NCBI GenBank assembly: GCA_013036105.1
Contig: JAAXCX010000005.1
Span: 62,001-126,000, forward strand
From: Vulcanimicrobiota bacterium
Lineage (GTDB): Bacteria; Vulcanimicrobiota; Vulcanimicrobiia; Vulcanimicrobiales; Vulcanimicrobiaceae
DNA length: 64,000 nucleotides
Direction of reading: 5' to 3'
Each line of letters begins with the position of its first letter. Position 1 is the stretch's first letter. This document shows positions 50,120 through 53,542 of this stretch, one piece after another. The notes below the pieces were generated by a model, which made no database searches, was not told the DNA's origin, and saw only the letters and a program-made list of their open reading frames with translations. The position numbers were made by a program, and so were the translations under genes.

Positions 50120-51595
50120 CTACGCGGGCTTGATGTACAGTTGCCGTTTGGCGTAGTCGAAAAACAACTGGTACTGCGATAGAACGTCGCGCCCCAGGAT
50201 GCCGTCGTAGTCGCTCAGATTAAACGTCGACGAACTGGGAACGAAAACCGACGCGTCGCCGAAATGAATACCGCCGAACTCGAGATCGGTCAAACGCCTG
50301 AGCTGAGCCGGCACCACCCCGCCGACGACGCTGAGACTCATGCCTTGCTCGACGACCGGGGCCGACGATCGCAGTTTCTGCACGTAGGTCTGATAGGCGA
50401 CCGTGCCCGTCGCGCCGGTGTCCACCAAGAAGAACCCCGGAACGCCTTCGAACGAAGCCTGCACTCGCGGCACGCCGTCGTCGAGCTGCAGGGGCAGCGA
50501 AAACATCCCAAGTGCATGTGGATCGAAACCGGACGGATAGAGCGTGATGGTTGACTTTTGGAAGTCGATACCGAGCACGGCCGACGCGATGAAGTCGCAT
50601 CCCAAGATACCGACGATGCGCGAGCCTTCGGCATAATGGGAAATCGGAACGACGGAAAACGCGACGTCGTGCAAGTGCAGCGGGCCGACGAAAAGATCGG
50701 GCACGCGCGTGCGCGATATGTTCACGTCGCCGCCGATCGTCTGATTCGTTACGCCATAGGTTGAGAGCCCAAGTTGGTGAGCGACGCCCGGATCGATCGC
50801 CAGTCCGGATGCGCCCGAATCGAGCAGAAAATCCAGGCCACGCCCGTTGATCGTCACGCGTACGACGATGCCGCTACTCGAAAAGGCCGCGGGTATGACA
50901 ACCGGCTGATCGATCGTGTAGAGGGCGCGCGACACGGGCATCGTTACCGGCGGACTATCCGCGGGGGCGCGTTCGAACGAGATCGTCTCGGTGACCGTAT
51001 CGTTTTGCGGGCGTCCGTCGTAGCTGTGGATGCGGAAGGGACGCATGCTTCCGAAGACCGGCCGGTAATCGCTGAACTCGGTGACGTGCTGGTGCATGTC
51101 GGCGTCGAACGTTATAAACCGGTCGACTAAAAACGTCTTTGCATCGTAGTAACGCAACTGATCGCTTCCGTCGGGCGGATTCGCTTCGACGACGTACTCT
51201 TGCGGCTGCGTCGCGGTCAGGCCCAGAACCGTAACGCGGTTAGCCGGATCCTCGGGGTGTAATAGCGCTTTGTTATTCGGATCGACGAAGCGGCGGAAAT
51301 CGCTGCGCATTAAGACCAGACCGTTTTCGTCTTGATTCCATCCTTGGCCGTTGTACAATCCCGATGCGGTCGTGTATTGACCGTTCTGTACGATCGCGAT
51401 GGAATTCGCGCCATCGATCCGGGTCGTGCGGATACGATCCATTCCGCCGCCTCGAATGCGGTCGATGATGACATAACGCCCAGTCGTGAGCGTTCCGCGC
51501 GCCGTTCTGCCTCTGGCCACGATCTCCGGTGCGCTCAGATTCGTGGGCAAGTACCCGACCAAGAGGAGAACGGCTGCTCCGAGCAGTGCTCCCAT
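50120..51595 (-). CDS. Double retropepsin-like aspartyl protease, exported
   Basis: A 491-residue protein. An N-terminal hydrophobic helix (1-20, MGALLGAAVLLLVGYLPTNL) serves as signal or anchor. Residues 25-230 have a LolA/outer-membrane carrier look (GTLTTGRYVIIDRIRGGG, a beta-rich domain with no known motif). Two retropepsin-like domains follow, each with its own active-site triplet: DSG at 259-261 (LDFLLDSGASGLAID) and DTG at 392-394 (FFLVDTGATGTVAY), with partner strands GILGCDFI and GILGRDVL. Retroviral enzymes need two DTG copies, one from each subunit; here one chain supplies both. The start is nine bases after the GDPH protein. Confidence 0.82.
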   Translation of the reverse strand: MGALLGAAVLLLVGYLPTNLSAPEIVARGRTARGTLTTGRYVIIDRIRGGGMDRIRTTRIDGANSIAIVQNGQYTTASGLYNGQGWNQDENGLVLMRSDFRRFVDPNNKALLHPEDPANRVTVLGLTATQPQEYVVEANPPDGSDQLRYYDAKTFLVDRFITFDADMHQHVTEFSDYRPVFGSMRPFRIHSYDGRPQNDTVTETISFERAPADSPPVTMPVSRALYTIDQPVVIPAAFSSSGIVVRVTINGRGLDFLLDSGASGLAIDPGVAHQLGLSTYGVTNQTIGGDVNISRTRVPDLFVGPLHLHDVAFSVVPISHYAEGSRIVGILGCDFIASAVLGIDFQKSTITLYPSGFDPHALGMFSLPLQLDDGVPRVQASFEGVPGFFLVDTGATGTVAYQTYVQKLRSSAPVVEQGMSLSVVGGVVPAQLRRLTDLEFGGIHFGDASVFVPSSSTFNLSDYDGILGRDVLSQYQLFFDYAKRQLYIKPA

Positions 51596-51604
51596 GCCGC
51601 ATGG

Positions 51605-52357
51605 TTAAGTGTGGCGCACCAAATCCCCGCCCAAAGTGACGGCGCTCGCATCGACGCTGACGTCGACACCTTGACCGCTACCGCGCAGCGTCGTGGTGAT
51701 CTGTCCGCCCGAGCCGTTGTCGTCGGAGATGACCAGCGAGCCGTCCGCGTTTCGTGACACCGTTTCGCCCCGGCCCAGCTGCATGGATTGGCCCGCGGCC
51801 AAGCTCAGCGACTTCCCGTTGCGAAGTACCTGCGCGTGGCCTTGGTTGTCGAGCGAGACTTGCGTGCGGCCGAAGCCCGTCGTGACGGCGGCTTGCCGGT
51901 TCCACGTGACGCCGTTGGCGCCCGGCGGCGTTACCGACGTGCCGATTTGAAATCCGCCGCGGAACGAATCGGAGTCGAGCAGGTCCGGCTGGTCGTTCAT
52001 GCTGTCGAAGCGCGACTGCTGCGTGCCCGCGGCGGTCGTGCCGTCGAATGCGAGGTGCGGATCTCCGGTGGACGACCCTTGGGCGCTGCTGAAGAACGGC
52101 TGCGCGGTATTTCCTTGGCCGCCGATCGCCGACAGTAATTGCTGCAGCAGGTTCATGATCTGCGAAAGGAGCGCGTTGACGCCGCCGCCCGCCCCGGCCG
52201 CCGAAGGCGAATCCGAAAAAGGCGGGCGCCGAATGAGATCGGCGTGTTTGGGTCGAGCCTGATCCGGGGGCGGTGCATCCAATCCCATAATGCCTCCGGC
52301 GTCCGCGGGATTTTGGATGGCGCCGAAGAGCGAAGCGTTGCTCTGCTGAATTTGCAT
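51605..52357 (-). CDS. GDPH-motif protein (possible DUF1521/VWD-like self-cleaving module)
   Basis: A 250-residue protein without signal peptide; the ATG at 52357 has GGAGG five bases upstream. The first 90 residues are Gln/Ala/Pro/Gly-rich, with a helix LLSQIMNLLQQLLSAIGG. The motif GDPHLAFDG at 98-106 and the following Asp-rich loop (NDQPDLLDSDSFRGGF) then lead to repeating beta strands to the end. GDPH is the cut site in metal-induced self-cleaving modules (DUF1521, as in rhizobial NopE1) and the GDPHxxxFDG pattern begins VWD domains. I cannot decide between them from sequence. It lies in one unit with the aspartyl protease. Calcium or metal binding is likely from the Asp content. Confidence 0.6.
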   Translation of the reverse strand: MQIQQSNASLFGAIQNPADAGGIMGLDAPPPDQARPKHADLIRRPPFSDSPSAAGAGGGVNALLSQIMNLLQQLLSAIGGQGNTAQPFFSSAQGSSTGDPHLAFDGTTAAGTQQSRFDSMNDQPDLLDSDSFRGGFQIGTSVTPPGANGVTWNRQAAVTTGFGRTQVSLDNQGHAQVLRNGKSLSLAAGQSMQLGRGETVSRNADGSLVISDDNGSGGQITTTLRGSGQGVDVSVDASAVTLGGDLVRHT

Positions 52358-52440: not shown

Positions 52441-53542
52441 ATGAGCGACTCTCAGCTCACCGCCATCGGCCGGCTCTCCGAGCGTCTCGTGACGCTCAAG
52501 GAGCGTCTTTGACTATTCCGGCAAGACGCGGCTGATCAGCGAGCTCGACGCCCGCACCCGCAACGAAGACTTCTGGAACGATCCCGACTCCGCGCAGCGA
52601 GTGATGAAGCAGCTCTCCGACGTGCGAGCCGACGTTGATGCGATGGATGCGGTTTCGCGCGCGCTCAGCGAGGCCCGGGAGCTGCTTACGCTCTTCCCCG
52701 ACGACGGTTCCGCGGACAGCGAGATAAACGCGAACCTCGCGCTTGCCGAGAGGCATTTAGATGATGCCGAGATGGCCGCGAACTTCGACGGCGAGTTCGA
52801 TGCGCACAACGCTATCGTTAGCATCTACGCCGGAGCGGGCGGCGTCGACGCTGCCGACTGGACGGCGATGCTCGCGCGCATGTATTCGCGCTGGGCCGAA
52901 ACCAAGGGTTTCCTGACGCACGTTGTGGACGAATCACCGGCCGAAGAAGCCGGGCTAAAATCCATTACGTTTTTCGTGCGCGGACGCAACGCGTACGGAA
53001 CGCTCGAAAGCGAACGCGGCGTGCACCGGCTGGTGCGCATCTCGCCGTTCGACGCCGCCCACCGCCGGCATACGTCGTTTGCGGCGGTCGACATCATTCC
53101 GGAGATCGAAACCGGCGAAAACGTCCAGGTCGAGATCAATCCCGAAGATTTGCGGTTCGAAACGTTTAAATCCGGGGGCGCGGGCGGGCAGTACGTCAAC
53201 AAGACGGAGTCGGCCGTGCGCATCATTCACGAGCCGAGCGGTTTGATCGCGGCTTCGCAGCAGGAACGTTCGCAAGCGCAGAACCGCGACGTCGCGATGA
53301 ATATTCTGCGTGCCAAACTCGTACAGCGCGAATTGGAAACGCGCGATAAGAAACTGGCCGAACTGCGGGGCGAGCGCAGTGCCAACGAATGGGGATCGCA
53401 GATCCGCTCCTACGTTCTCAACCCGTATCAGCTCGTCAAAGACCACCGTACGAACGTTGAAACGGGAAACACATCCGCCGTGCTGGACGGCGAGATCGAC
53501 ACGTTCATTTGGCCGTATCTGCAACAGCGCCGCGCGATTTAG
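52441..53542 (+). CDS. prfB: Peptide chain release factor 2 (programmed +1 frameshift)
   Basis: Release factor for UAA/UGA stops, 366 residues after the shift. The zero frame codes MSDSQLTAIGRLSERLVTLKERL and meets TGA at 52510-52512; one base forward, from 52511, the frame runs on to 53542. The site CTT-TGA-C with AAGGAG three bases before it is the classical recoding signal by which RF2 controls its own level. The RF2 selectivity motif SPF is in SPFDAAHRRH, and the catalytic GGQ is in GAGGQYVNK. The coordinates include the skipped base at 52510. Confidence 0.97.
52498..52513 (+). promoter_or_regulatory. prfB: RF2 recoding site
   Basis: AAGGAGCGTCTTTGAC contains a Shine-Dalgarno-like AAGGAG, the slippery CTT codon and the TGA stop followed by C, a weak termination context. 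Pairing of the SD-like bases with 16S rRNA is known to push the ribosome one base forward when RF2 is scarce. Confidence 0.95.

Follow-up and report, generated by a model that had tools for sequence, protein, structure and literature searches.

A bacterial protein family with a predicted VWD fold and a GDPH self-cleavage motif that is hidden from sequence models

The window analysed here, a stretch of 64,000 nucleotides from a Vulcanimicrobiota bacterium, carries on its minus strand a 250-aa GDPH protein (gene A), which, judged by its structural model, is a member of a bacterial VWD-fold family that has a self-cleavage motif and is hidden from sequence models. The pair that gene A forms with the adjoining aspartyl protease gene (gene B) is ordinary.

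Gene A (51605..52357, minus strand) starts with an ATG at 52357, with GGAGG just 5' of the start, and is separated from gene B (50120..51595, minus strand) by the 9 nt CCATGCGGC; the two minus-strand genes with a nine-base gap described in the original prediction were found as ORFs. The gene has homologs in the family, and purifying selection was detected on the whole gene (dN/dS 0.21-0.31) and on its domain (0.15-0.25), substitution patterns that indicate a translated and constrained sequence. Residues 1-60 (52178..52357) form a low-complexity tail, predicted to be disordered (pLDDT 40-53), and residues 61-78 (52124..52177) an amphipathic Leu/Gln helix, supported by the model and by its hydrophobic moment. 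The predicted VWD-fold domain occupies residues 88-250 (51608..52096). The GDPH motif, with the proposed cut at Asp99/Pro100, lies at residues 98-101 (52055..52066), within GDPHLAFDG (residues 98-106), and the Asp-rich stretch that had been noticed after it, FDSMNDQPDLLDSDSF, is present. No hydrophobic signal was seen in the N-terminal sequence of gene A, as had also been remarked earlier. The protein of the window contains no cysteine, and 31 of the 57 A domains compared are likewise Cys-free. Searches of gene A against Pfam, NCBIfam and PHROGs gave no meaningful match.

The fold was assessed with AlphaFold2 on a single family member (one model, 49 homologs). The pLDDT was above 90 over residues 88-250, with block means of 93-98 for residues 91-250, and the model placed GDPH (98-101) between strand 1 (88-97) and strand 2 (101-108). 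When the model was compared with the PDB by Foldseek, the top 26 matches were all VWD-containing (best E 1.1e-4, probability ~1). In VIA-align, ranks 1-33 were VWD-containing, with Z from 15.5 to 9.7, with rank 22 (an insect pigment protein) as a possible exception; the first non-VWD fold in the list had a Z of 5.5. The top match was MUC5AC (Z 15.5 over 141 residues, 2.5 Å). In the same alignments, residue 100 of gene A falls on residue 169 of RGMB (4ui2_D), which we take to be the first residue after the GDPH cut, and Pro100 falls on the first residue past the cut in FCGBP D10 (8qci_B 4081). The motif Asp of FCGBP D10 is Asp4080 (PMC10880436). A VWD fold for the domain of gene A is well supported by this model, and the earlier comparison of the GDPH entry with VWD domains finds strong support at the level of the predicted fold, in which GDPH takes the position that it has in the self-cleaving VWD domains.

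Sequence profiles would have led to a different answer. The Pfam VWD model (PF00094), against which a search had been proposed, gave no match to A or to any A relative, and in none of 149 genomes of the phylum did it score above the cut-off. Because the score never reaches the Pfam cut-off, we call A a VWD-fold protein and not a member of Pfam VWD, a family that has some bacterial members. As this model is blind to A, a profile test alone would have wrongly dismissed the VWD idea. When a profile of A was searched against all PDB sequences, FCGBP was listed second (E 0.12), with GDPH aligned on GDPH in several VWD domains and 8.9 bits for the best single FCGBP domain. The E-value alone is unconvincing, and the GDPH register lends it support. 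The same search returned 9gtr_q, a VgrG-like match (E 0.011), which was rejected as a repetitive beta stretch that did not include GDPH. In a literature search of PubMed Central, no paper was found on bacterial GDPH VWD domains. A small protein of a soil bacterium with the predicted fold and the GDPH site of VWD domains such as those in human mucins suggests a hidden bacterial version of this module.

Animal VWD domains are extracellular and have conserved cysteines, and a disulfide links their strand 1 to the rest of the domain. Gene A has the fold in common with the GDPH-containing VWD domains of FCGBP D10, RGMB and MUC2/MUC5AC (Z up to 15.5), as well as the GDPH between strands 1 and 2 in the same register, the F-[DN]-G that follows it and the invariant Asp and His of the motif. 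It differs from the animal domains in being bacterial, in being missed by PF00094 and in standing without C8, TIL or E domains. In place of a signal peptide it carries a disordered tail that includes an amphipathic helix, and in the protein of the window the disulfide from strand 1 to the domain is impossible, as there is no cysteine.

The GDPH protein had also been likened to self-cleaving DUF1521 modules. GDPH is the cut site of the type III-secreted DUF1521/MIIA proteins (PMC6506597); in VIC_001052 the cut falls behind the Asp of this motif and takes place with Ca2+ or Mn2+, and the MIIA domain, which is highly acidic, is disordered when Ca2+ is missing (PMC6506597). Gene A has GDPH, a low-complexity N-terminal region and the absence of a signal peptide in common with these proteins (PF07481; NopE1, NopE2, VIC_001052). 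However, the DUF1521 identity was rejected, with no match to PF07481 by hmmscan or by genome-wide profile search, and hhalign of A against 15 DUF1521 members of the same phylum gave a probability of 8.5% and, with bridges added, an alignment limited to 19 columns around GDPH. The domain of A is neither highly acidic nor disordered, unlike MIIA with its Ca2+-dependent order, and the gene lies between prfB and secA, away from the type III-like locus, which is on another contig. DUF1521 members are present in the phylum, only in families other than that of the window. The model of one of them (L117, pLDDT 88) resembled no PDB structure clearly, with a best Z of 5.2 and VWD rows only at 3.8; a missing VWD match does not prove a different fold.

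GDPH was found in 81/81 distinct A domains. These were gathered by profile or protein similarity in which the motif was not required, so its presence is not due to chance; one further match, a fragment without the GDPH region, stands outside the 81. A profile built from 18 A domains detected the domain in 77 genomes of the window's family and in two distant genomes of the phylum, and in none of 16 sampled genomes from other families of the order and class. Among 45 related loci, those in named genomes were from Candidatus Eremiobacterota (Vulcanimicrobiota), except for one record labelled Rhodospirillales, which was placed in the window's own family by genome search. No A relatives were found in plasmids, phages or viral contigs.

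In two species of the window's genus (genomes G001 and G004; loci L019 and L020), the whole GDPH/VWD domain has been deleted in frame and the N-terminal part is kept, leaving proteins of 105 and 110 aa in which the helix-bearing tail is followed by a short C-terminal end. The dN/dS between the two truncated proteins was 0.17, showing that selection persists. In another genome (G075, L190), gene A is split into two pieces about 113 kb apart, at C1:184015-184098 (the GDPH part) and 297668-298072 (the rest), which suggests that a rearrangement broke the gene.

In most of the loci A and prfB, the gene for release factor 2 (52441..53542, plus strand in the window), are divergent, and A is often tail-to-tail with secA. 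Among the loci compared there was no conserved co-directional partner of A, and gene B lies between A and secA in genus g1 only. The programmed frameshift site of prfB, CTTTGACTA, is of the usual type and the gene is ordinary.

Gene B encodes a 491-aa double retropepsin-type aspartyl protease with a hydrophobic N-terminus. Both active sites that had been predicted in this one chain were seen, a DSG (LLDSGASG) in the first domain (residues 245-335; 50591..50863, a Pfam match) and a DTG (LVDTGATG) in the second (about residues 376-485; 50141..50470, from profile matches), and Pfam Asp_protease_2 (PF13650) matches the protein in two stretches (E 4e-29). The score for TIGR02281 was 48.5, below its cut-off of 57.95. 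Gene B is under purifying selection (dN/dS 0.05-0.14), and paralogs occur in all 41 genomes searched, with up to 12 per genome. With two DSG/DTG domains per chain and many paralogs it resembles the retropepsin-like proteases of clan AA (PF13650, TIGR02281), and nothing unusual was found in comparison with them.

For gene A, we consider it fairly probable that the protein is a bacterial, cysteine-free VWD-fold domain which would cut itself at Asp99-Pro100 once folded. The protein would have two parts: residues 1-87, a disordered tail that contains a short amphipathic helix, and residues 88-250, which form the compact VWD-fold domain. As the domain folds, the chain around Gly98-Asp99 would be held in place, and the side chain of Asp99 could attack its own backbone carbonyl, so that the Asp99-Pro100 bond breaks, probably via an anhydride and with no need for a protease. 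The products would be a 99-residue N-terminal piece (tail, helix and strand 1) and a 151-residue remainder. They would not be tied by a disulfide, because the protein of the window has no cysteine, and the N-terminal piece could either be kept clipped in by beta-sheet pairing or be released. From known VWD chemistry we infer this folding-driven self-cleavage; the computations themselves gave the fold, the placement of GDPH between the first two strands, the invariance of the motif and the fixed locus of A across the family. For FCGBP D10 to be cut, both the Asp and the His of its motif are required, and a Gln close by assists; cleavage is abolished when the motif Asp is changed to Ala or Asn or the His to Asn, and in simulations the favoured route is an attack by the Asp side chain on the carbonyl of the same residue, with the Gly-Asp bond in cis (PMC10880436). 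Both of the residues that are essential in FCGBP are invariant in A. The Gln that helps cleavage in FCGBP D10 corresponds to Met in A according to the profile alignment, and Met is also found at this position in other GDPH domains of FCGBP.

It could be argued that A has the VWD fold but keeps GDPH for structural reasons, as a tight turn from strand 1 into strand 2 that is uncut or only slowly cut. The Met in place of the helping Gln would fit such a role, as would the Gly and Pro, which can be structural in a turn. However, all four residues, including the Asp and His on which cleavage of FCGBP depends, are invariant in the 81 domains, in which very few other columns are. The VWD fold itself needs no GDPH, because solved VWD domains without a cut GDPH retain the fold (PMC10880436), and we regard a purely structural motif as unlikely. 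Another outcome, quite improbable in our estimation, is that the anhydride formed at Asp99 would react with a lysine or other amine, so that the N-terminal piece of A becomes joined covalently to another molecule. It would be in keeping with a protein that has no cysteine to hold its two pieces together, and there is a precedent: in the RTX protein FrpC, a self-processing module that cuts at Asp-Pro when induced by calcium couples its anhydride to an amine, and the same has been proposed for MUC2.

The cleavage could also take place outside the cell, if A left through a type III apparatus, of the flagellar or another type, and then cut itself like the NopE/DUF1521 proteins. A lacks a signal peptide and its N-terminus is disordered, GDPH is cut in the type III-secreted DUF1521/MIIA proteins (PMC6506597), the genome of the window has a FliF-FliH-FliI-FliP-FlhB-FlhA locus, and all DUF1521 carriers of the phylum have at least five FHIPEP genes. 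However, genomes with many FHIPEP genes are also the largest ones, and the surroundings of DUF1521 or bridge genes, inspected in 17 regions of up to 20 kb, contained no export gene. Type III export is not required for keeping A, because two genomes that are 96-98% complete (G005 and G006) lack FlhA and FliP and have A intact and under selection, and many genomes have the export locus but not A; export by this route therefore appears improbable. The idea that A and B form a processing system, in which the exported protease B would trim or activate A, fares worst and is very unlikely to be correct. The genes are on the same strand, with the 9 nt gap in the window, and are neighbours in 6 of the 7 genomes of the genus, but when relatives were checked for side-by-side conservation, no B adjoined A outside genus g1, and A stands alone beside prfB across the family. 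B paralogs are present in every genome searched, G004 retains B although its A has lost the VWD domain, and B looks exported whereas A does not. Since B adjoins A in this genus only, has widespread paralogs and is kept beside a domain-less A, the two are not a unit held together by evolution. Gene B is a separate, ordinary aspartyl protease that became the neighbour of A in one genus.

A self-cutting VWD-fold domain, which we prefer for A, may also have a wider setting in the phylum. A DUF1521-type protein (L112) and an A/VWD-type protein (L126) have an N-terminal domain in common (42% identity), so the two GDPH modules hold the same place in similar proteins. It is possible, though this can be offered only tentatively, that the phylum uses two structurally different self-cutting GDPH modules, with VWD and DUF1521 folds, as interchangeable C-terminal parts of proteins with a similar build, and that one family fixed the VWD type in the form of a self-processing protein, in many cases cysteine-free, which would free or hand over its N-terminal helix on folding. 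If true, the mucin/VWF self-cleaving domain would have a branch outside the animals that has diverged beyond the reach of current sequence models. The GDPH proteins observed in other families of the phylum were L112, L122 (G045), L126 (G136) and L127 (G045).

The best-studied cases of GDPH cleavage are mucus and signalling proteins of animals, in which the presence of disulfides makes the work harder. With a soluble, Cys-free bacterial VWD-fold domain of about 160 residues that carries this motif, the Asp-Pro reaction could be studied in a minimal system; such a domain would also give a clue to how the VWD fold arose early on and could possibly serve as a tool for tag removal, like the MIIA domain. 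The family also illustrates that a group of proteins defined by its fold can escape current sequence models entirely.

The flagellar-type export locus of the window's own genome (L132; contig C1, 104000-123000, 1587-15488, plus strand) contains genes for FlgC-like, FliF, FliH, FliI, FliN, FliP, FliR-like, FlhB and FlhA proteins, and the Pfam matches run Flg_bbr_C (below cut-off), YscJ_FliF, FliH, ATPase, SLT, Asp_protease_2, FliMN_C, FliP and Bac_export_2. The phylum has a cultured member, Vulcanimicrobium alpinus, which lacks both flagella and a flagellin gene (PMC9758169). The genomes with DUF1521 matches and at least five FHIPEP genes each (G045, G051, G054, G132-G137, G139 and G140) would therefore have several type III-like systems per genome, with genome size as a confounder. 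A transglycosylase and a B-like double aspartyl protease sit inside the L132 locus. In many genomes of the class (G002, G003, G008, G009, G014, G015, G020, G023, G025-G027, G033 and G038), the distance between a B-like aspartyl protease gene and the FHIPEP (FlhA) gene is about 6-26 kb, and a protease therefore seems to be part of the export locus.
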